Below are positions 21-11,815 of a DNA stretch of 11,815 nt, piece by piece. This DNA comes from an uncultured Solimonas sp. (GTDB lineage: Bacteria; Pseudomonadota; Gammaproteobacteria; Nevskiales; Nevskiaceae): the NCBI GenBank assembly GCA_946478985.1, contig CAMLDZ010000098.1, positions 1 through 11,815 on the forward strand. Direction: 5' to 3'. A program made the translations under genes and the position numbers. Numbering within the stretch: the stretch's first letter is position 1; each line of letters begins with the position of its first letter. The notes beneath the pieces are model-generated. The model saw only the letters and a list, made by a program, of their open reading frames with translations. It was not told the DNA's origin and searched no databases.

Positions 21-1280
21 ATGAATTCTGCTTTTGCCACTGTCGACAGCTGCCCCGTCTCCCATGTCGGAGGCGCGCAGGCCGTCGCTGCGCCGCCGGT
101 CGGCCCCCATGCGCATACGCTGGAAGTCCTGCTCAAATCGATCAGCGAAGGCTTTTACGGCATCGATCGCGGCGGCCGCTGCGTCTTCATCAACCGCGCC
201 GGCGCCGAGACCCTGGGCTACACGCCGCAGCAGCTGATCGGCCGCGAGATGCACGCGCTGATCCACCGCTACCAGGCCGACTCCGACGCCGCGCCGCGCG
301 AGCAGCACTGCCCGTTCTACCGCGCCGTCGTGCACGGCGAATCCTGCTGCATCGACAGCGAACGGCTGTGGCGCGCCGATGGCAGCAGCTTTCCGGTCGA
401 ATACTCGGTATCGCCGATCATCGAGGCCGGCCACACCATCACCGGCGCCGTCGTCACCTTCCGCGACATCAGCGACCGCAAGCAGGCCGAGGCCTTGCAG
501 CGGCGCATGCACGACGAACTGGAACGCCGCGTCGAAGAGCGCACGCAGGAGCTGCACCAGACGCTGCAGGAGCTGGGCCGCACCACCGACCGGCTGCGCG
601 AACTGTCGGCGCATGTCGAGAACGCCTGCGAGCTGGATCGCAAGCGCATCGCCCGCGAAATCCACGATGAGCTGGGCAGCGTGCTGGTGGCGCTCAAGCT
701 CGACACCAGCTGGCTGCGCGGCCGCGTCGCCGACCGTGATGATCTGGTCGCCAAGACCACGACGATGACGCGGCTGATCGACAAGGCGGTGGTCGAGGTC
801 GGCCGCATCATCACCGACCTGCGGCCGTCGATCCTCGATCATCAGGGCCTGTGGGCGGCGATGGAATGGCACGCGCTGGAGTTCCTCGAATCCAGCGGCC
901 TGCGCGGCAAGCTGCGGATCGACGTCGCCGACCGCGCGCCGCCGGACGGCGCGCTGGCCACCGCCGCCTACCGCATCTTCCAGGAGATGCTCAACAACGT
1001 CGTCCGCCACGCCCGCGCCTCGGCGATCGACATCGAAGTCTGCGCCACCGCCGAGCGGCTGCGCATCGTCGTCAGCGACGACGGCCTCGGCATCACCGAG
1101 CAGCAGCTGCACGGCCGCCGCTCGTACGGGCTGATCGGCATGTGCGAGCGCGCCCGCCATTTCGGTGGCGAGCTGCAGATCGGCGCGTCCGCCAGTGGCG
1201 GCACGCGCGTCACCGTCCGTCTTCCGTATGCCCCCTCACTCGCCAAGGAGCCGAGCCATGATTCGCTTGTTGATCTGTGA
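21..1280 (+). CDS. PAS-domain sensor histidine kinase, NarX/HisKA_3 type
   Basis: This is a cytoplasmic two-component sensor kinase that should autophosphorylate and pass phosphate to the regulator encoded next to it. A PAS/PAC region spans about residues 32-155 (FYGIDRGGRCVFINRAG, then WRADGSSFPVEYS and FRDISDRKQAE). A coiled-coil linker follows at about 155-205. The HisKA_3 dimerisation segment has phosphoacceptor His215 in REIHDELG. The HATPase_c domain shows the N box (QEMLNNVVRHA, about 321-331), the DDGLG box (353-357) and the C-terminal GGTRVTVRLP. There is no transmembrane segment or signal peptide, so sensing should be cytosolic through the PAS domain; its ligand cannot be told from sequence. 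The frame is open to the left window edge and no good Shine-Dalgarno precedes the ATG at 21, so the true start may lie upstream. The 3' end overlaps the regulator gene by 23 bases, implying co-transcription. Confidence 0.93.
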   Translation: MNSAFATVDSCPVSHVGGAQAVAAPPVGPHAHTLEVLLKSISEGFYGIDRGGRCVFINRAGAETLGYTPQQLIGREMHALIHRYQADSDAAPREQHCPFYRAVVHGESCCIDSERLWRADGSSFPVEYSVSPIIEAGHTITGAVVTFRDISDRKQAEALQRRMHDELERRVEERTQELHQTLQELGRTTDRLRELSAHVENACELDRKRIAREIHDELGSVLVALKLDTSWLRGRVADRDDLVAKTTTMTRLIDKAVVEVGRIITDLRPSILDHQGLWAAMEWHALEFLESSGLRGKLRIDVADRAPPDGALATAAYRIFQEMLNNVVRHARASAIDIEVCATAERLRIVVSDDGLGITEQQLHGRRSYGLIGMCERARHFGGELQIGASASGGTRVTVRLPYAPSLAKEPSHDSLVDL

Positions 1281-1983
1281 CGACCACGCCATCGTCCGCG
1301 CCGGCCTCGCACAGATGCTGGCCGGCGTCAGCGATTTCCGCGTCGCCGCCGAGGCTTCGGATGGCCCGCAGGCCATGCGCTTTCTGCGCGACGGCGGCAT
1401 CGACGCGCTGCTGCTCGACATCGCCCTGCCCGGCCGCGATGGACTGGACGTGCTCAAGCAGGTGCGCAGCGAGTTTCCGCGGCTGCCGGTGCTGATGCTG
1501 TCGACCTATCCGGAGAAGCAGTACGCGATGCGCTGCCTGCAGCTGGGCGCCGATGGCTATCTCAACAAGAGCGCCGATCCCGAACAGGTGGTGGTGGCGA
1601 TCCGCAAGGTGGTCGGCGGCGGCCGTTACATCACCTCATCGGTGGCCGAATCGCTGGCCTCGGCGCTACGCCGCGAAGTCGAGCGGCCGCCGCACGAATC
1701 GCTGTCCAAGCGCGAATACCAGGTGTTCTGCCAGATCGCCAGCGGCCGTTCGCTGTCGCAGATCGCCGAGTTGCTGAGCCTGTCGCCGAATACCGTCAGC
1801 ACCTATCGCGCGCGGGTGATGGACAAGATCAGCACGCACAACGATGTCGAGACCGCGCTCTACGCGGTACGCCACCGCATCGCCGTCGACGGCGGTGTCG
1901 AACTGCACGAGCAGGGCAATGCCGAGCTGCGCGCGCCCGGTCTGTCGACCGAAGCGCGGTACGGCGCCGCCAGCCTCATGTAG
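1258..1983 (+). CDS. NarL/FixJ-family response regulator (REC + LuxR-type HTH)
   Basis: This is a 241-residue DNA-binding response regulator. The receiver domain (1-120) has the acidic pair Asp8-Asp9, phosphoacceptor Asp54 in LLLDIALPGRDG, Ser82 in MLSTYP and the conserved Lys104 in YLNKSA. A LuxR/GerE helix-turn-helix occupies about 147-207 (LSKREYQVFCQIASGRSLSQIA, then LSLSPNTVSTYRARVMDKI). About 34 further residues form a tail without a recognised domain. The start at 1258 is chosen because AAGGAG at 1245-1250 lies 7 bases upstream and the residues fit the domain start; an in-frame ATG at 1165 lies inside the kinase gene and lacks this support. The gene overlaps its kinase partner and should receive its phosphate. 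Its stop codon lies inside the palindrome at 1979-1996. By inference it binds that palindrome and the copy at 3312-3329. Confidence 0.94.
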   Translation: MIRLLICDDHAIVRAGLAQMLAGVSDFRVAAEASDGPQAMRFLRDGGIDALLLDIALPGRDGLDVLKQVRSEFPRLPVLMLSTYPEKQYAMRCLQLGADGYLNKSADPEQVVVAIRKVVGGGRYITSSVAESLASALRREVERPPHESLSKREYQVFCQIASGRSLSQIAELLSLSPNTVSTYRARVMDKISTHNDVETALYAVRHRIAVDGGVELHEQGNAELRAPGLSTEARYGAASLM

Positions 1984-1996
1984 TGCTGCCACTACA
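1979..1996. promoter_or_regulatory. Palindromic operator, copy 1 (TGTAGTG-N4-CACTACA)
   Basis: This is a perfect 7-bp inverted repeat with spacer CTGC. It overlaps the last codon and the TAG stop of the response regulator gene and lies 155 bases before the lipoprotein start. The same arms with the same spacer length recur at 3312-3329 upstream of the barrel gene. The dyad symmetry fits a dimeric regulator. The adjacent NarL-type regulator is the simplest candidate, although the arms do not match the classical E. coli NarL heptamer arrangement. It could in principle also form an RNA hairpin, but no T-run follows. Confidence 0.75.
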
Positions 1997-2012
1997 GACC
2001 GTCGTCGCCATG

Positions 2013-2047
2013 ACGACAGGCGAATGCCGCGCAGCGTGATAGGCCGC
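2013..2047 (+). promoter_or_regulatory. Putative promoter of the lipoprotein-globin unit
   Basis: ACGACA (2013-2018) lies 16 bases beyond the palindrome. A GTGATAGG region follows about 17-19 bases later (2036-2043). Both are poor sigma-70 matches, as expected for an activator-dependent promoter. The support is comparative: bases 1997-2043 align without gaps to 3330-3376 upstream of the barrel gene with 25 of 47 identities, including ACGACA, AATG and GCG-N-GATA. If transcription starts near 2052, the palindrome is centred around -64. The resulting leader of about 100 bases holds a small GC-rich hairpin (2098-2112). Confidence 0.45.
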
Positions 2048-2151
2048 GGCAGCGTCACCCTCTAGCCTCTGTACCAGGGCGAACCCCGGAGCCGACACGG
2101 CGCCGGGCGCCGACGTTCCGAACCACCCTTTTCGCGATCGGAGTTCCACCC

Positions 2152-2757
2152 ATGTCTCACCTCTACCGAACCGCCGCGGCGCTGCTCTGCCTCGGCACGG
2201 CGGTAAGCCTGTCCGCCTGCGGCAAATCCGCCGAAGCTCCGGCCGCCGGTCCCGGCGAAGCCAAGACCATCAGTGCCAAGGCGATGGCCGACGGCCTGCA
2301 TCTGGTCATGAGCTCGGATCGCACCGTCTATACGCGCCTGATCGTCAATCGCCTGCAGAACGACGAGCAGATCATCAAGGCCTCCGAGCACTGGAAGGAA
2401 GACAAGGCGCTGGTGCTGCCGGCGCAGATGTTCCGCTTCGGTGCCGAGATGGTCGCCGAGAAAGGAGCGGGTTTCTCGTACTCGTTGCAATCGCTGTGGC
2501 CGGTCAACAAGCAGAACGCGCCGAAGACCGAGGTCGAGAAAGCCGGGCTGCAGTTCATCGTCGACAACAAGGGCAAGAACTACTACGCCGAGGAAACGCT
2601 CGGCGAGCAGAAGTACTTCACCGCGGTGTACGCCGACATGGCCGTCGCACCGGCCTGCGTGTCCTGCCACAACGGCCACAAGGATTCGCCGAAGACCGAT
2701 TTCCAGATCGGTGACGTGATGGGCGGCGTGGTCATCCGCATCCCGCTCGAAAGCTGA
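2152..2757 (+). CDS. Tll0287-like (DUF3365) c-type heme lipoprotein
   Basis: This is a 201-residue predicted periplasmic or membrane-anchored lipoprotein. The N-terminus is a signal peptide with lipobox LSAC, giving lipidated Cys23, followed by a short Ala/Pro/Gly-rich linker. The rest matches the Tll0287-like/DUF3365 family as I recall it: a helical start around 38-80, FRFGAEMVAEKG, the FSYSLQSLWPVNKQNAP stretch, and one heme c attachment motif CVSCH (Cys169, Cys172, His173) followed by NGHKDSPKTDFQIGDVMGG. Family members are PAS-like heme domains found alone or as the sensor part of signalling proteins. A role as periplasmic heme sensor or electron carrier is therefore plausible but not shown. 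GGAG at 2140-2143 supports the start. The globin gene follows after 26 bases without a terminator, so the two are probably one transcript controlled from the palindrome at 1979-1996. Confidence 0.85.
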   Translation: MSHLYRTAAALLCLGTAVSLSACGKSAEAPAAGPGEAKTISAKAMADGLHLVMSSDRTVYTRLIVNRLQNDEQIIKASEHWKEDKALVLPAQMFRFGAEMVAEKGAGFSYSLQSLWPVNKQNAPKTEVEKAGLQFIVDNKGKNYYAEETLGEQKYFTAVYADMAVAPACVSCHNGHKDSPKTDFQIGDVMGGVVIRIPLES

Positions 2758-2783
2758 TCGATCCTCCCGCACGGAAACACGCC

Positions 2784-3182
2784 ATGACGCCTCAACAAGT
2801 CGAACTCGTGACCACGACCTGGGACAAGGTCGTACCGATCCGCGACACCGCCGCCGAACTGTTCTACGGCAAGCTGTTCGAGCTGGACCCCAACCTCAAG
2901 CTGCTGTTCAAGGGCGACATGAAGGAACAGGGCCGCAAGCTGATGATGATGATCAACACCGCCGTGCGCGGCCTGCGCGATCTGCCGGCGCTGGTGCCCG
3001 CGGTCAAGGCCCTGGGCCAGCGCCACGTCGGCTACGGCGTGCAGCCCAGCCACTACTCGACCGTCGCGGTGGCGCTGCTGTGGACGCTCGAACAAGGGCT
3101 CGGCGACGACTTCACGATGGAAGTCCGCGACGCCTGGACCGAGGTGTACATGGTGCTGGCGACGACGATGCAGACTGCCTAG
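2784..3182 (+). CDS. Single-domain bacterial globin
   Basis: This is a 132-residue heme globin of the Vitreoscilla haemoglobin/flavohaemoglobin-domain type, without a reductase domain. Visible features are Tyr28 at the B10 position (ELFYGKLFELDP), Phe42 at CD1 (LKLLFKGDM), Gln49 at or near distal E7 (KEQGRKLMMMI) and proximal His81 in GQRHVGYGVQPSHY. Tyr-B10/Gln-E7 pockets in this family usually bind O2 tightly and can act on NO, so O2 binding, NO dioxygenation with a separate reductase, or gas sensing are all possible. There is no signal peptide, so it is cytoplasmic. The start at 2784 gives normal globin length, though its Shine-Dalgarno (ACGGA) is weak, consistent with coupling to the lipoprotein gene upstream. 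A strong terminator at 3236-3264 ends the unit. Confidence 0.9.
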   Translation: MTPQQVELVTTTWDKVVPIRDTAAELFYGKLFELDPNLKLLFKGDMKEQGRKLMMMINTAVRGLRDLPALVPAVKALGQRHVGYGVQPSHYSTVAVALLWTLEQGLGDDFTMEVRDAWTEVYMVLATTMQTA

Positions 3183-3197
3183 GACTCGCCAGAGTCC
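3182..3197 (+). other. Short hairpin at the globin stop codon
   Basis: GGACTC-GCCA-GAGTCC is a perfect 6-bp stem with a 4-base loop. It begins at the last base of the globin TAG stop. No T-run follows, so it is not itself an intrinsic terminator. It may protect the mRNA 3' end together with the terminator hairpin 38 bases downstream, or have no function. Confidence 0.4.
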
Positions 3198-3235
3198 GAA
3201 CCACTCCACCCCACCATCCCGGGGCGCAATGGCAG

Positions 3236-3264
3236 ACCGCAGGTGCTTGCACCTGCGGTTTTTT
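3236..3264 (+). terminator. Intrinsic terminator after the globin gene
   Basis: ACCGCAGGTG and CACCTGCGGT form a perfect 10-bp stem around loop CTTG. Six T's follow directly (3259-3264, the first shared with the stem end). The site lies 54 bases after the globin stop. It separates the lipoprotein-globin unit from the barrel gene, which therefore needs its own promoter. Confidence 0.93.
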
Positions 3265-3311
3265 GCTGTGCGCGCGGCATTCGGGCTTCAGAAGTCGCCT
3301 GCCGCGGCCGC

Positions 3312-3329
3312 TGTAGTGCCCACACTACA
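3312..3329. promoter_or_regulatory. Palindromic operator, copy 2 (TGTAGTG-N4-CACTACA)
   Basis: Both 7-bp arms are identical to those at 1979-1996, with the same 4-base spacing (here CCCA). It lies 124 bases before the barrel start and just after the terminator of the preceding unit, where an operator would be expected. No third perfect copy was seen by eye in the window. Confidence 0.75.
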
Positions 3330-3345
3330 AGGCATCGCTGCATTC

Positions 3346-3380
3346 ACGACATCGCAATGATGGCTGGCGCGATACAGCGC
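3346..3380 (+). promoter_or_regulatory. Putative promoter of the outer-membrane barrel gene
   Basis: ACGACA (3346-3351) again lies 16 bases beyond the palindrome, with GCGATACA at 3369-3376 in the -10 position. Alignment with the region after copy 1 gives 25 of 47 identities at identical spacing. The core elements are weak, suggesting dependence on an activator bound at 3312-3329. Confidence 0.45.
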
Positions 3381-3408
3381 GATCCCGCCACTCCATAAGC
3401 TGACTCCA

Positions 3409-3437
3409 GATCGCGACAACGACCCCGCAGCGCGATC
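3409..3437 (+). other. Leader hairpin before the barrel gene
   Basis: GATCGCG (3409-3415) and CGCGATC (3431-3437) can pair as a perfect 7-bp stem with a 15-base loop. It ends 5 bases before the AGGGAG ribosome-binding site (3443-3448). It may affect translation or mRNA stability, but a chance pairing in GC-rich DNA cannot be excluded. Confidence 0.3.
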
Positions 3438-3453
3438 GCACCAGGGAGCAACA

Positions 3454-4680
3454 ATGACACGCAACAAGGTCACGGCACCGGATCAGCGCATCTTCCGCCG
3501 CCGCGCCATTTCGCTGGCCGCATCGCTGGCCGGCCTGTTGATGCTGCAGCCGCAGATCGCCAGCGCCGACGCGCTGACAGACGCCATCACCAAGGGTACG
3601 ACCAATCTCGACATGCGCCTGCGCTACGAGACGGTCGACCAGGACAACACGCTCAAGCAGGCCGATGCGCTGACCCTGCGCACCCGCCTGGGCTACACCA
3701 CGCAGAGCTGGAACAAGTTCAGCGCGATGGCCGAGCTGGAGAACACCTCGGCACTGATCGACGATTACGCGCCGGTGCAGGCCGGCTATTCCGTCGTTGC
3801 CGACCCGGACGACAGCGAGCTCAACCAGTGGGGCATCAGCTACGCCGCGCTGCCGGGCCTGACCGCCAGCGTCGGCCGCAAGCGCGTGGTGCTCGACAAT
3901 GCACGCTGGATCGGCAATGTCGTGTGGCGGCAGAACGAGCAGACCTACGACGGCGCCTTCCTCAAGTACGCGCCGAGCACCGCGCTGAACTTCGAATACG
4001 CGTACATCAACAACGTCAACAACATCGTCTTCGCCAACGTCGATCTCGAAGGCCACCTGGCCAATCTGCGCTGGGCGGTGCTGCCGACGCTGACGCTGGT
4101 CGGCTACGCCTATCTGCTCGACTACGAAGTGCCGGCAACGCCGGATCTCGACACCTACGGCATCCGCGCCGACGGCAGCGCCCCGCTGAGCAGCACCGTC
4201 AAGCTGCTGTACACGGCCGAGTACGCCGCGCAGAAAGCCGACACGCCGGCCGGCAGCTTCGATACCGACTACCTGCTCGGCGAGATCGGCCTCGGCTTCA
4301 AGCCGCTGAGCGTGCGACTGGGTTACGAAAAGCTCGGCAGCGACGATGGCGTGGTTGCGCTGCAGACGCCGCTGGCAACGAAGTACGCGTTCAACGGCTG
4401 GGCCGACCTGTTCCTGACCACGCCGGCCGGCGGTCTGGAAGACGTCTACCTGACGGTCACCGGCAAGCTCGGCACCGCCACGCTGATCGCCAGCTATCAC
4501 GAGTACAGCGCCGACCAGACCGTGGGCGGCGTCGACGACTACGGCAGCGAAATCAATCTGTCGGCGGGCATGCCGCTGGCCGGCAAGCTCAGCGGCCTGA
4601 TCCGATATGCCAGCTACAGCGCCGACGAGTTCGGCGTCGATACCGACAAGTTCTGGGCGCAGCTCGAATTCAAGTTCTGA
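3454..4680 (+). CDS. Outer-membrane beta-barrel protein, alginate-export/porin-like
   Basis: This is a 408-residue predicted outer-membrane channel. The N-terminus has a basic stretch (RIFRRRAIS), a hydrophobic core (about 19-31) and a likely signal peptidase site near IASADA (35-40). The mature part is a series of alternating amphipathic strands (for example NLDMRLRYETV, TLTLVGYAYLLDY, INLSAGMPL) and ends in phenylalanine (QLEFKF), the usual C-terminal signal for barrel assembly. The stretch GRKRVVLDNARWIGNVVWRQ, followed by NEQTYDGAF, resembles the conserved segment of alginate-export-family porins as I remember it. The transported substrate cannot be inferred. AGGGAG 5 bases upstream supports the start. 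The gene is monocistronic between two terminators, and the palindrome at 3312-3329 ties it to the heme lipoprotein-globin unit. Confidence 0.82.
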   Translation: MTRNKVTAPDQRIFRRRAISLAASLAGLLMLQPQIASADALTDAITKGTTNLDMRLRYETVDQDNTLKQADALTLRTRLGYTTQSWNKFSAMAELENTSALIDDYAPVQAGYSVVADPDDSELNQWGISYAALPGLTASVGRKRVVLDNARWIGNVVWRQNEQTYDGAFLKYAPSTALNFEYAYINNVNNIVFANVDLEGHLANLRWAVLPTLTLVGYAYLLDYEVPATPDLDTYGIRADGSAPLSSTVKLLYTAEYAAQKADTPAGSFDTDYLLGEIGLGFKPLSVRLGYEKLGSDDGVVALQTPLATKYAFNGWADLFLTTPAGGLEDVYLTVTGKLGTATLIASYHEYSADQTVGGVDDYGSEINLSAGMPLAGKLSGLIRYASYSADEFGVDTDKFWAQLEFKF

Positions 4681-6820: not shown

Positions 6821-7549
6821 TTACTGTCCTTGTGTCTCGCGCGCGGCGACGGCCTGCGCGATCTCGTCCTGTATGGTCTGCGCCATGGCGCGCGGATCGG
6901 CGGCGTCGCGGATCGGCCGGCCGACGACCAGATAATCGGAGCCGGCGGCGATCGCGGCGGCCGGCGTCATGATGCGCTTCTGGTCGGCCTCGACGCGGTT
7001 CTCGACCGGGCGGATGCCCGGCGTCACGCAAATCAGCTTGGCCGGCGCCTCGCGGCGCAGCCGCTCGACTTCCAGCCCCGACGACACCACGCCATCGCAA
7101 CCGGCTTCAAGCGCACGGCGCGCGCGCGACAGCACCAGATCGGCCACCTCGCACTGAAAGCCGAGGTCGTTGAGATCGCCCTGATCGAGGCTGGTCAGCG
7201 CCGTCACTGCCAGCACCTTCATGCCGTCGGTCTTGGCGCGGGCGGCGGCTTCCATGATCGACTGGTTGCCGTGGATCGTGCACAGGTCGGCGCCGCGCTC
7301 GGAGAGGTTGCGCACCGCGCGCGCGACGGTCTCCGGGATGTCGAAGAACTTGAGGTCGACGAAGACCTTCTTGCCGTCGGCCTTGAGCCCGTCAAGCAGC
7401 TCGAAGAAGCCGGGCGCCATCAGCAGTTCCATGCCGATCTTGTAGAACACGGCGGCATCGCCGATCCGCGCCACCAGCGCGCGGGCTGCATCGGCCGTCG
7501 GCACATCGAGCGCGACGATCAGGCGCTCGCGGGAGGGAATGGCATTCAT
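6821..7549 (-). CDS. pyrF: Orotidine 5'-phosphate decarboxylase
   Basis: This 242-residue enzyme performs the last step of UMP synthesis, decarboxylating OMP. The family core DLKFFDIP (Asp65, Lys67, Asp70) is intact, with Asp15 in IVALDV, Lys37 in FYKIG, and the C-terminal phosphate-binding region around CVTPGIRP and YLVVGRPI. The ATG at 7549 is chosen over an in-frame TTG at 7552. This ATG overlaps the ccdB stop by one base (TGATG), so translation is probably coupled to the toxin gene; only a weak Shine-Dalgarno-like ACGGG lies upstream. hemE follows after 3 bases. An essential biosynthetic gene directly coupled to a toxin-antitoxin module is unusual. Confidence 0.96.
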   Translation of the reverse strand: MNAIPSRERLIVALDVPTADAARALVARIGDAAVFYKIGMELLMAPGFFELLDGLKADGKKVFVDLKFFDIPETVARAVRNLSERGADLCTIHGNQSIMEAAARAKTDGMKVLAVTALTSLDQGDLNDLGFQCEVADLVLSRARRALEAGCDGVVSSGLEVERLRREAPAKLICVTPGIRPVENRVEADQKRIMTPAAAIAAGSDYLVVGRPIRDAADPRAMAQTIQDEIAQAVAARETQGQ

Positions 7550-7857
7550 CAATAACCCGTCAATAAAAAATCCAGCGCAGCGAGTATTTCGCCTCGGTGC
7601 ACGGACAGATCGCCAACCGGCAAGCCCAGCACACCCAGCGGCAAGGCTCCGATCTCACCCGGCGACATCACGTAACTGTCTTGCCCTACAGGCAGCAGCG
7701 GGTTGAGACGGGTGGCCGTCGATCCGAAATATCCAAGCTCCACCAGCGGCACGACGACGCGCAACTGCGTTGCCACGATGTCCGATTGCACATCGAGCAG
7801 ATATGGGGCCTGCTTACGACTCGCGCGCGGATTGCGGTAGACGTGGAACTGCGCCAT
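7549..7857 (-). CDS. ccdB: CcdB-family toxin
   Basis: This 102-residue protein belongs to the CcdB family, whose plasmid-F member poisons DNA gyrase. Recognisable segments are MAQFHVYRNP at the N-terminus, YLLDVQSDIV (19-28), RVVVPLVE (33-40), LNPLLPVG (51-58) and DLSVHRGEILAALDFLL (83-99). The start at 7857 overlaps the ccdA stop by one base (TGATG), and upstream in-frame codons lie inside ccdA. Its own stop overlaps the pyrF ATG in the same way. The C-terminus is LLTGY, whereas F-plasmid CcdB ends in WGI, residues known to be needed for gyrase poisoning; only the glycine is kept. It may therefore have altered activity, or belong to a chromosomal subgroup with another terminus. Confidence 0.9.
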   Translation of the reverse strand: MAQFHVYRNPRASRKQAPYLLDVQSDIVATQLRVVVPLVELGYFGSTATRLNPLLPVGQDSYVMSPGEIGALPLGVLGLPVGDLSVHRGEILAALDFLLTGY

Positions 7858-8102
7858 CAGAACGGCAGCAGATCGCCATTCAGCGGCCCGTCGCGGGCAA
7901 CGCGCGCGTCGAATGCGGCCAGGGCTTCCCGGTTCTCGTCCAGCCATTGCCTTCCGCGCACTTCGCGCAAGGCCTGTTCGAGCTTCTCTTCGAGAAAGCG
8001 TGACAGATTGACCTGCTCCTTGCGCGCCTCGGCGATCAGGTCTTCACGAATGCTCAGATTGAGGCGGCGGCGCGCTTCAGACGTTTTGCGGGTGAGGGCC
8101 AC
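7857..8102 (-). CDS. ccdA: CcdA-family antitoxin
   Basis: This protein of about 81 residues has an N-terminal ribbon-helix-helix-like DNA-binding part (RRRLNLSIREDLIAEARKEQ, followed by VNLSRFLEEKLEQAL) and a C-terminal toxin-binding tail (QWLDENREALAAFDARVARD, then GPLNGDLLPF), matching CcdA layout. It should neutralise CcdB and repress its own operon. I prefer a GTG start at 8102 because GGAG (8113-8110, minus strand) lies 7 bases upstream. The in-frame ATG at 8126 would add 8 residues but lacks a Shine-Dalgarno and lies inside a palindrome that is probably the operator. The stop overlaps the ccdB start by one base. Confidence 0.87.
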   Translation of the reverse strand: MALTRKTSEARRRLNLSIREDLIAEARKEQVNLSRFLEEKLEQALREVRGRQWLDENREALAAFDARVARDGPLNGDLLPF

Positions 8103-8115
8103 GATGGAACTCCAG

Positions 8116-8142
8116 GCAGTGCGCATAGTTTATGCACATTGC
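8116..8142. promoter_or_regulatory. Palindromic operator/promoter region of ccdAB
   Basis: GCAGTGCGCATA and TATGCACATTGC are 12-base arms around GTT; 10 of 12 positions are complementary, with an unbroken inner GCATA/TATGC. On the minus strand it contains TAAACT (8132-8127), a possible -10 that would place the start of transcription near 8120, just ahead of the GGAG and GTG of ccdA. This fits an operator bound by the CcdA-CcdB complex. No convincing -35 was found. Confidence 0.55.
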
Positions 8143-9328: not shown

Positions 9329-11815
9329 TCATGTAGACCTTGGTGGAGTGTCGAGCAGGGCCTTGAGCGTTTGCGCCGACGGCCGGTTCAGGGCCTTGAG
9401 TTCCTGCGCGAACAAGGCGATCCGCCATTCCTCCAGCAGCCAGCGTGCCGGATGCGAGAGATCCGCCAGCTTTGCCGCGAACGGCGCCACCTGCAGACTC
9501 AGCTCCTCGTCACGCGCCGGCTTGTTGGCCAGCCGTTCCATCCGCACCTGCAGCGCGCGCAGGTACAGCGCGATGCGCGACCACTGCGCGTCGGGAATCT
9601 GCAGCAGGAAATCGCCGGCGAACAGGCTGTCGAGCTGCGCGCGCATGTCGGCCACCGACTTTGGCCAGCGCGCCTCGATGCCCGCCAGCGACTTGCGGAT
9701 GCCGGCAGCGAGGTTGAGCCAGTTGAGCAGCGTGTCGAGCCGTGCGGCGGCGTCGAGGCTGAACGCGGCGCGGCGTTCCAGCGCCTGCTGGAAATCGGCG
9801 CGCGTGCGGATCGGCGCGTCGATCAGCTTGCTGTCCGCGGCGCGCTGCGCCAGCTGTTCGGCGACGCGCTGCGGATCGAGCTGGAACGTCGTCGCCAACA
9901 AGGCCAGCTTGAGCCGCGCGCTCTTGGCCAGATCGCGCATGCGGTCCGGCAGCTTGAGCAGCAGCAGCGCACGGCTGCCGGCGTGATGCGCGGCCTGCGC
10001 GGCCTCGCGCGATTCGAACAGGCGCAGCTTGACGAAGTCCTGGTCGACGCTCAGCGCCGGAAAGCCGCGTGCGCCGCTGGCCAGCGGCACCGACTCCGGC
10101 AGATCGTCGAAATCCCAGTCGGTGAGCTTGTCGCGCGTCCACTGCTTCAGGCCGTCGTCACGGCTCGCCGCCTGATTGAGCGCGCTGCGCGCCTCGCCGC
10201 GGAAGCGGCCGCGCAGCTGGTCCAATGTCTCGCCGGTGCCGAGCACCACGCCCTTGTCGTCCTCCAGCTGCAACCGCGGGCGCAGATGCCGCTCCAGCCT
10301 GGCCGGCTCGAAGTCGCCGGGCTCCAGCCGCACGCCGGTCATCGCCTGCAGCGCACCGCAGATGCTGGCCAGCAGCTCGCCCTGCGGCGGATCGAGCCGC
10401 TGCGCGACCGCCAGCGCGTATTCGCCGGCCGGCGTGCACTGCCGGCGCAGGTGCATCGGCAGCGTGCGGATCAGCGCCTCGATCTTGGCCGCGCGCAGGC
10501 CCGGCACCAGCCAGTCGAACACCTCCGCCGGCAACTGGTGCACCTGCGCCAGCGGCACGTGGAAAGTGACGCCGTCATGCGCCTCGCCCGGCTCATGCGA
10601 GTAGCTCAGGCGCAGCGCCACGCCGCCGACGTCGAGATGATCGGGGAACAGGCTTTCGACGTCCGGATTGGCGCCGGGCCGCAGCGCGTCGGCCTCGGCC
10701 ATCGTCAGCGTCTTCTGCGCCGCCGGCTCGCGGCGCAGCCAGTTCTTCAGGTGCGCGCTGGCGCAGACGTCCGCCGGGATGCGCGCCTCGTAGAACGCCT
10801 GCAGCTGCTCCTCGCTGGCCAGCAGGTCCGGCCGGCGCAGCCGCGCTTCCTTGTCGAGGATGCTGCTGACCAGTTCCAGGTTGGCGTCGAGAAAGGCCGG
10901 CTTGCGCGACAGGTTGCCGCGCACCAGCGCCTCCAGGATGAAGATCTGACGCGCCTCGGCCGGATGCGTGGAGCCGTAGTGGCGCGCCCGCGTCAGCAGC
11001 GCCAGGCCCAGCAAGGACACGTTCTCGGTGGCGGTGACCTCGCCGCGCTCGACATTCCACTGCGGATGCAGCAGCACGCGCTTCACCAGATGCGGCGCGA
11101 CGCGCTCCAGCCAGTCCGGCTCGATCGCCGCGTTGGTGCGCGCGTACAGCTGCGTGGTCTGCGCCAGCTGCGCGCTCATCACCCATTGCGGCTGCTTCTT
11201 GATCAGCGCCGAGCCGGGATGGATGCGGAAGCGGCGGTTGCGCGGCCCCTGGTACTCGGTCTTCTCCGGCAGCTTGTGGCCGATGTGATCGATCAGGCCG
11301 GCGAGCAGGGCCTCGTGAATCGGCACGAACAGCTCGTCGAGCTTCTCGTTGGTCCAGCGCTCGCTCACCGCTTGTCTCCCTCTCCCCGCCTGCGGGGAGA
11401 GGGTTGGGGTGAGGGGCATGCCGTTGGCGTCCGCGCGCTGCCCCTCATCCGCCCTGCGGGCACCTTCTCCCCGCCCGCGGGGAGAAGGATTCGCAGAAGG
11501 ATTCTGGGTCAACAGATCGACCAATTGCCTGTGCACCGCCTCCCATTCCTCCATGCGCAGGAACGAGACGAAGTGGTCGCGGCAGATCTTGCGCAGCTGG
11601 CGGTTGCTGGCGCTGCCGCTCCAGTCGCGCCACTGCTGCCAGAGCTTGAGCAGGGTGAGGAAGTCCGAGCGCGGATGGCGCCACTGCGCGTGCTTCTGCC
11701 GCGCGCTGTCCTGCGCGTCGGACGGAAACTCGTGCGGGTCCTGCACCGACATCGCCGCCGCCAGCACGGTGACGGCGTCCTGCGCCATGCTGCCCTTGCC
11801 GGCCAGCGCGATGCG
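9329..11815 (-). CDS. hrpA: DEAH-box RNA helicase HrpA, C-terminal part (cut by right edge)
   Basis: These are 828 codons of the C-terminal part of HrpA, a large DEAH/RHA-family ATP-dependent RNA helicase; the ATPase core with the DEAH motif lies beyond the window. The fragment opens at the end of the helicase-associated/OB region (AMSVQDPHEFP, then SDFLTLLKLWQQWRD) and continues through the DUF3418-type region. Examples are VHRQLVDLL, IHEALLAGLIDHIG, RFRIHPGSALIKKQPQWVM, LRLSYSHEPGEAHDGVTFHV, FDWLVPGLRAAKIEALI and DDKGVVLGTGETLDQL; these match E. coli HrpA as I recall it. The frame is open to base 11815 with no start inside. Between HRQLVDLL and IHEALL it carries a Gly/Arg/Pro-rich segment encoded by a REP-like inverted repeat pair (11378-11488), absent from typical HrpA. 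The helicase fold should not be interrupted. Confidence 0.95.
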   Translation of the reverse strand, partial: RIALAGKGSMAQDAVTVLAAAMSVQDPHEFPSDAQDSARQKHAQWRHPRSDFLTLLKLWQQWRDWSGSASNRQLRKICRDHFVSFLRMEEWEAVHRQLVDLLTQNPSANPSPRGRGEGARRADEGQRADANGMPLTPTLSPQAGRGRQAVSERWTNEKLDELFVPIHEALLAGLIDHIGHKLPEKTEYQGPRNRRFRIHPGSALIKKQPQWVMSAQLAQTTQLYARTNAAIEPDWLERVAPHLVKRVLLHPQWNVERGEVTATENVSLLGLALLTRARHYGSTHPAEARQIFILEALVRGNLSRKPAFLDANLELVSSILDKEARLRRPDLLASEEQLQAFYEARIPADVCASAHLKNWLRREPAAQKTLTMAEADALRPGANPDVESLFPDHLDVGGVALRLSYSHEPGEAHDGVTFHVPLAQVHQLPAEVFDWLVPGLRAAKIEALIRTLPMHLRRQCTPAGEYALAVAQRLDPPQGELLASICGALQAMTGVRLEPGDFEPARLERHLRPRLQLEDDKGVVLGTGETLDQLRGRFRGEARSALNQAASRDDGLKQWTRDKLTDWDFDDLPESVPLASGARGFPALSVDQDFVKLRLFESREAAQAAHHAGSRALLLLKLPDRMRDLAKSARLKLALLATTFQLDPQRVAEQLAQRAADSKLIDAPIRTRADFQQALERRAAFSLDAAARLDTLLNWLNLAAGIRKSLAGIEARWPKSVADMRAQLDSLFAGDFLLQIPDAQWSRIALYLRALQVRMERLANKPARDEELSLQVAPFAAKLADLSHPARWLLEEWRIALFAQELKALNRPSAQTLKALLDTPPRST
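11378..11416. repeat. REP-like palindromic unit 1 inside hrpA
   Basis: CCCTCTCCCCGC (11378-11389) and GCGGGGAGAGGG (11392-11403) form a perfect 12-bp stem around CT, followed by TTGGGGTGAGGGG. This stem-plus-tail layout is familiar from dispersed, mostly intergenic palindromic repeats in GC-rich proteobacteria; that assignment rests on recall. Read in the hrpA frame it gives PLTPTLSPQAGRG, a peptide commonly seen where such repeats are translated. Confidence 0.8.
11441..11488. repeat. REP-like palindromic unit 2, inverted to unit 1
   Basis: CCCCTCATCC begins the unit and mirrors the GGGGTGAGGGG end of unit 1. A small GCCC-TGC-GGGC hairpin (11451-11461) follows. Then CCTTCTCCCCGC (11463-11474) and GCGGGGAGAAGG (11477-11488) form a perfect 12-bp stem around CC. 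Units 1 and 2 thus face each other across 24 bases (11417-11440). In hrpA they span 111 bases, exactly 37 codons, and keep the frame open. Confidence 0.8.
11483..11504. repeat. Tandem 10-bp direct repeat at the edge of the REP-like insertion
   Basis: AGAAGGATTC occurs at 11483-11492 and again at 11495-11504, separated by GC. On the hrpA strand this encodes a repeated Asn-Pro-Ser (NPSANPS). It abuts unit 2 and could be a small duplication made during or after the insertion. Confidence 0.6.

Follow-up and report, generated by a model that had tools for sequence, protein, structure and literature searches.

A palindrome in front of two transcription units of an uncultured Solimonas sp. is the probable operator of the adjacent NarL/UvrY-type response regulator

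Introduction

Next to a two-component system of an uncultured Solimonas sp., two transcription units are preceded by the same palindrome, TGTAGTG-N4-CACTACA. One encodes a lipoprotein and a single-domain globin, the other an outer-membrane beta-barrel with porin-type matches, and the two-component system comprises a sensor histidine kinase and a NarL/UvrY-type response regulator. All of them lie within a stretch of 11,815 nucleotides (assembly GCA_946478985.1, contig CAMLDZ010000098.1), which was analysed as a whole and is referred to as the window (Table 1). The locus raises the question of which protein recognizes the palindrome and which process the genes behind it serve. An earlier note on this DNA had proposed that the palindrome is the operator of the adjacent regulator, and a comparison made in related genomes now supports this view: we consider it very probable that this regulator has the palindrome as its primary operator. 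What the sequence itself shows is the motif, the gene order, the conservation together with the clade of the regulator, and a spacing to promoter-like elements that the sites have in common.

Results

The palindrome and its neighbouring regulator

Both copies are exact, with perfect 7-base arms separated by a 4-base spacer, as the earlier note had described, and the genes that they precede, i.e. the lipoprotein-globin unit and the barrel gene, are broadly those it had named. The spacers differ (CTGC in copy 1, CCCA in copy 2) and thus the arms alone are common to both. No third match with up to three mismatches is present in the window, and at this threshold 200 dinucleotide shuffles gave a mean of 0.10 matches, with two matches in 1 of the 200. 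Copy 1 overlaps the stop codon of the regulator gene (TAG, 1981-1983), and a terminator-like hairpin stands between the globin gene and copy 2.

The regulator belongs to the NarL/FixJ family, as its Response_reg (94.6 bits) and GerE (58.9 bits) domains both score above the Pfam cut-offs. Its best NCBIfam match is the UvrY/SirA/GacA family NF007018, where its 170.4 bits remain below the cut-off of 280 for this equivalog, and the solved structures that it matches include VraR, ChrA, NarL and others. In the kinase no strongly hydrophobic 19-residue stretch was found.

The palindrome accompanies the regulator clade and its cyanate clusters

A scan based on an alignment of the regulator yielded 49 loci, the first 13 of which were analysed, the other 36 (24-37% identity) being set aside. 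In the first 12 the regulators are 62-72% identical to that of the window, and in 7 of these 12 (L003, L007-L012) the motif, allowing two mismatches, lies directly behind the regulator gene; in L006 it lies one small reading frame further on, and no match, even at three mismatches, was obtained for L001, L002, L004 and L005. The gene downstream of the motif in L007-L012 starts an ATP-binding cassette (ABC) transporter. In L009 its binding protein has a match to NMT1_2, both the permease and the ATPase exceed the NCBIfam nitrate-transporter cut-offs, and the transporter genes are followed by a cyanase gene scoring above its cut-off; we infer cyanate as the transported substrate because cyanase is present. 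Cyanase was found in 16 of the 18 regulator-bearing genomes tried, i.e. not in G003 and G008, and the contig end of L008 shows the start of a cyanase gene.

The comparison was extended to 53 regulator loci, consisting of the 39 rows fetched out of 40 of a candidate scan (the remaining row being L009), one paralogue and L001-L013. This candidate scan scored up to nine candidates per genome, and G097, which was absent from it, was found through the motif. A binding-protein gene of the cyn-type ABC transporter is located on 17 of the 53 loci. Fourteen of these have the palindrome, with up to two mismatches and either T or G at the sixth base, upstream of their cyn cluster, but it is near none of 34 paralogue regulators; among the latter, L181 has one two-mismatch match 3.4 kb away. 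The corresponding Fisher p values, 5e-10 (14/17 vs 0/34) or 7e-9 (vs 1/34), are nominal, being uncorrected for the common descent of the loci, and the T/G variant was defined after the sites had been seen.

The site follows the cyn cluster even where this is remote from the regulator gene. In L168 the cluster is located 3.4 kb from the regulator, with the motif ending 79 bases before the first ATG of the cluster, and in L001 a CGTAGTA...TACTACG palindrome is found at the cyn cluster 2.1 kb from the regulator. L001 and L002 carry a perfect related palindrome, CGTAGTAGCACTACTACG, upstream of the first gene of the cluster, which is of the DJ-1/PfpI type. Moreover, a single site at up to one mismatch is present in each of G009, G010 and G011, and a single exact one in G272 and in G220; every one of these lies at a cyn cluster next to a regulator of the clade. 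In G084 and G085, which have a related cyn cluster and no regulator hit, the fetched stretches contain no motif at up to two mismatches; in G084 an ANTAR protein is encoded in front of the cluster.

The first residue of the recognition helix separates the same groups: all 20 clade members counted (the window, L003, L272 and the 17 cyn-linked loci) have Asn (N) there, as does L004, and all 34 paralogues have Lys (K) or Ala (A). Three clade members with an Asn helix (L168, L170, L173) have the form TGTAGGG-N4-CCCTACA. In G097 (L272, 10461-11677) a kinase match is followed by a regulator match that covers the helix-turn-helix part only, the receiver part being unmatched. The PAS domain of the kinase contains two Cys residues in the window and in 7 of the other 8 aligned sequences; they are absent in L003 (844-2007).

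Orthologues of the two window units

The window has the kinase-regulator pair, the palindrome and the NTV helix, and none of its genes was seen to belong to a cyn cluster. Orthologues of both units occur in a metagenome-assembled genome (MAG) of Panacagrimonas (G003). At its locus L003 the motif, with one mismatch, lies between the regulator gene and orthologues of the lipoprotein and globin genes (76% and 75% identity). Just one further site at up to one mismatch exists in this genome, an exact copy on contig G003:C2, which is unlinked to the regulator locus and stands upstream of an orthologue of the porin gene (58% identity). Among 85 genomes from the order to which G003 belongs, 3 have a match to the regulator (E up to 1e-50); these 3 are also the ones with the lipoprotein (E up to 1e-30), and the barrel family was detected in 31.

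From 32 porin matches 30 loci could be examined, two matches (G054:C3, G032:C53) having no locus. Among the 30, the motif is upstream of the porin gene at the G003 locus, the G006 locus has a two-mismatch match located inside a cyanase gene, and the other 28, including that of G005, have none at up to two mismatches. For 27 of the 30 the genome gave no regulator hit, and the motif at this threshold is found at none of these loci (0/27). The search in related genomes that the earlier note had called for succeeded for both units in the Panacagrimonas MAG, but not for the lipoprotein genes of G005 and G006 or the porin gene of G005, which lack the motif.

A common promoter layout downstream of the palindrome

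At both window sites GTGATA or GCGATA begins 40 bases and TAGCCT or TAAGCT 67 bases past the palindrome, i.e. the spacing is identical. GCGAYA (up to one mismatch), followed by TA at a distance of 27 bases, recurs in 14 of 21 aligned sites, an alignment that leaves out L004 and L005, which are without the palindrome. At most 1 of the 21 sites showed this pair in 2000 mononucleotide shuffles, and at most 2 in 200 shuffles with positions re-chosen; these controls are after the fact, as the elements were chosen from the very sites tested. GCGAYA is offset from the palindrome by 18 bases in nine sites and by 39-40 in five, so that the long and the short promoter forms are 21-22 bases, or about two helical turns, apart. 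L006 carries the first downstream element only and L168 the second only, and the pair is absent in L169, L170, L172, L173 and L175. By eye, several cyn promoters of the latter five loci have a sigma-54-like TGGCCC...TTGCA past the palindrome.

Possible secondary sites lie between palindrome and promoter. ACGACA occurs at an equal offset (17) in both window sites and in the porin site of G003; at promoter 1 (2013-2018) it accompanies a degenerate inverted repeat. L003 and L006 have degenerate second sites 21 bases past the palindrome. As a sigma-70 consensus scan of positions 1900-3500 found no promoter, the -10 proposal rests on conservation. The position of the palindrome, far upstream of a putatively weak promoter, suggests an activator role.

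Other features of the window

The lipoprotein scores 71.3 bits for the Tll0287 domain against a cut-off of 24.1 and contains the sequence C-V-S-C-H (P0121), in agreement with an sCache_heme protein. The porin-type matches of the barrel are all below the curated cut-offs, and no solved structure matched it at E up to 1. Outside the locus, two small overlapping reading frames on the minus strand (7549-8126) resemble, by eye, a CcdB/CcdA-type toxin-antitoxin pair and sit between pyrF-like and isocitrate-dehydrogenase-type genes. At 11370-11500 a GC-rich inverted repeat of the CTCCCCGC...GCGGGGAG type is read in frame within a long minus-strand reading frame (9329-11788).

Table 1. Features of the regulator locus in the window, with the basis of each assignment
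Feature	Position	Strand	Basis
Sensor histidine kinase (PAS, HisKA_3, HATPase_c)	21..1280	+	domain matches
NarL/UvrY-type response regulator, proposed palindrome binder; recognition helix NTVSTYRAR	1258..1983	+	domain matches, helix alignment
Palindrome copy 1, proposed lipoprotein-globin operator	1979..1996	+	exact match; one-mismatch counterpart before L003 orthologues
Degenerate inverted repeat GTCGTC-GCCAT-GACGAC, about 22 bases further, possible secondary site	2001..2017	+	sequence
GTGATA, conserved promoter-proximal element, promoter 1 (consensus GCGAYA)	2036..2041	+	site alignment
TAGCCT, proposed -10 element, promoter 1	2063..2068	+	site alignment
Lipoprotein, Tll0287-like (sCache_heme) domain, CXXCH	2152..2757	+	domain match
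Single-domain globin	2784..3182	+	domain match
Terminator-like hairpin after lipoprotein-globin unit	3234..3261	+	terminator scan and folding
Palindrome copy 2, proposed porin gene operator	3312..3329	+	exact match; exact counterpart before porin orthologue, Panacagrimonas MAG contig G003:C2
ACGACA, possible secondary half-site, promoter 2	3346..3351	+	site alignment
GCGATA, conserved promoter-proximal element, promoter 2	3369..3374	+	site alignment
TAAGCT, proposed -10 element, promoter 2	3396..3401	+	site alignment
Outer-membrane beta-barrel, family often beside NrtA-type binding proteins	3454..4680	+	family and neighbour matches

Discussion

The palindrome could in principle be read by something other than the regulator next to it, or not be a regulatory DNA site at all. 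An RNA hairpin, acting as terminator or attenuator downstream of the regulator gene, would be in line with the overlap of copy 1 with the stop codon, and a 7-bp hairpin can form at both copies (z-scores -2.2 and -1.8). However, the terminator scan calls neither copy, copy 2 follows another terminator-like hairpin and stands in front of a gene, the letters rather than pairing alone are conserved, and in L168 and L001 the palindrome lies kilobases away from the regulator gene. The negative scan and these displaced sites disfavour a terminator, and we regard an RNA element as highly improbable. Chance or a repetitive element is in our estimate just as implausible, although a background of near matches speaks in its favour. 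Among the genomes of 13 relatives there are 8 sites at up to one mismatch in 7 genomes, compared to 5 sites of a reversed control. In the 85 genomes of the order of G003 there are 26 such sites in 21 genomes vs about 92 for the reversed control; single-mismatch matches are therefore background. Sixteen of the 26 share one form, TGTA(C/T)TGGTA(C/T)CACTACA, which in the three loci opened lies inside one kind of reading frame, citrate/methylcitrate synthase-like by eye. Exact matches, on the other hand, are rare (2 of 339 genomes class-wide, reversed control 3 of 339), and the clade has its exact or near copies at the same promoters.

More weight has to be given to the idea that another, unlinked NarL-type regulator uses the same half-site and has the palindrome as its operator. 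In G075-G077 an exact copy, and in G078 a one-mismatch copy, is located beside another NarL-type regulator (L076-L079); the regulators of L076-L078 are 34-39% identical to that of the window and have an Asn in the recognition helix as well. By eye, the gene across the site looks secreted in three of these four genomes. The related form TGTAGGG-N4-CCCTACA stands beside yet another NarL-type regulator, with Lys in the helix, in L236 and L245. In L235, L236, L238, L239 and L245 this form lies before an ABC operon that by eye resembles the polyamine type, and these operons are possibly a sister regulon. A search with the T/G-variant pattern in the order of G009 (300 genomes) gave 21 exact sites in 18 genomes vs 9 for the reversed control, seven of them at cynA (one being G097), five before the polyamine-type ABC operon, two of these beside the other NarL-type regulator, and nine without evident pattern. 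Nevertheless, the motif tracks the clade of the window regulator (14/17 vs 0/34), and the sites of G009-G011, G272 and G220 are all at a cyn cluster beside this regulator, so that an unlinked regulator is unlikely, if less so than the two readings above.

Together with these sites at other regulators and the background of near matches, several observations weigh against an assignment to the adjacent regulator. The cyn-linked locus L005 has a half site only, L001 and L002 have the related form only, and L004, a member of the same clade, has no palindrome beside its regulator; its cyn contig is separate and begins inside the permease gene, i.e. it covers nothing upstream of the cluster. The missing motif at the G005 and G006 genes described above belongs here as well. 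In the class-wide sample the two regulator-bearing genomes, G001 and G144, are without an exact TGTAGTG copy, and neither of the two genomes with the exact motif is one in which this regulator was found; a class-wide regulator search (E up to 1e-68) had hits in 2 of 369 genomes, both already known.

With regard to known systems, the classical NarL regulator belongs to the same family, but its 7-2-7 site differs from the window palindrome in arm orientation and spacer. The site of NreC, which controls nitrate regulation in Staphylococcus, is GTAGGG-N4-CCCTAC; it has the same spacer and differs by one base per arm, and the NreC-like form TGTAGGG-N4-CCCTACA is even present in the clade of the window regulator (L168, L170, L173), although kinase type and genes of the NreC system differ from those of the window. 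NreC-P is reported to bind a GC-rich palindromic region (PMC8139620).

The box of UvrY/GacA/SirA (BarA-UvrY, GacS-GacA), given as TGTAAGN6CTTACA in PMC3171408 and PMC4682653, is likewise an 18-bp inverted repeat with an outer TGTA-N10-TACA frame, but the window palindrome deviates from this consensus in the inner arm bases, and the target genes differ. The earlier note had not recognized the motif as a described consensus, yet its frame makes the site not entirely unfamiliar. The same two papers report for E. coli UvrY an upstream inverted repeat and a second crosslinking site near -35. A literature search by arm letters found neither arm among the matches listed. For cyanate, PMC6627978 describes the cynABDS cluster of Pseudomonas pseudoalcaligenes CECT5344, which comprises a cyanate ABC transporter and cyanase as in the clade, but is controlled by CynF, a divergently encoded sigma-54-dependent regulator, in contrast to the kinase-regulator pair and palindrome of the clade. 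Among the matches listed, literature searches gave this CynF-type control and no two-component cyanate regulator with an operator. In another case cynS is located in a urea-transport cluster (PMC2907700).

The family neighbours of porin and globin suggest, at the level of gene content, a role in nitrate/cyanate nitrogen assimilation. A gene for an NrtA/CynA-type binding protein is found within the flanks of 18 of the 30 barrel loci, including that of G003, and L265 has the gene order NarK, ANTAR regulator, barrel, binding protein, permease, ATPase (by eye), NirB. The globin gene of L275, which shares 70% identity with that of the window, is flanked by two genes resembling NrtA/CynA-type binding proteins, and L006 has kinase and regulator together with lipoprotein, globin, cyn cluster and barrel. 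For a stand-alone sCache_heme protein, PMC12889525 reports redox-like properties rather than those of a nitric oxide sensor. Because the site stands before a nitrate/cyanate-uptake-type porin and two heme proteins, the regulon probably provides for the uptake of a small nitrogen anion and for protection against reactive nitrogen or redox by-products.

Returning to the adjacent regulator as the reader of the palindrome, the following scheme may be envisaged. The PAS kinase would read a signal and cause phosphorylation of the regulator, which would then bind the 18-bp palindrome as a dimer and weaker half-sites further down. From there it would activate a weak promoter, with a predicted start about 87 bases, or some eight DNA turns, from the palindrome centre, so that the lipoprotein-globin unit and the porin gene would be switched on together. 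The regulator would stem from a clade whose common target is a cyanate-type uptake/cyanase cluster. Tentatively, and with somewhat less than even confidence, we thus speculate that a dedicated cyanate, perhaps nitrate/nitrite, two-component system with its own 18-bp operator was rewired, i.e. that the cyn cluster was lost or left and that porin, c-heme lipoprotein and globin are now co-activated, coupling nitrogen uptake to nitrosative/redox protection.

If this is true, cyanate assimilation would gain a two-component regulator with a recognizable operator, which would allow the regulon to be predicted from sequence in uncultured relatives. The stand-alone sCache_heme lipoprotein and its globin partner, both poorly understood, would be tied to a testable condition. 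Finally, the locus would represent a case in which a regulon has changed while regulator and site were conserved.

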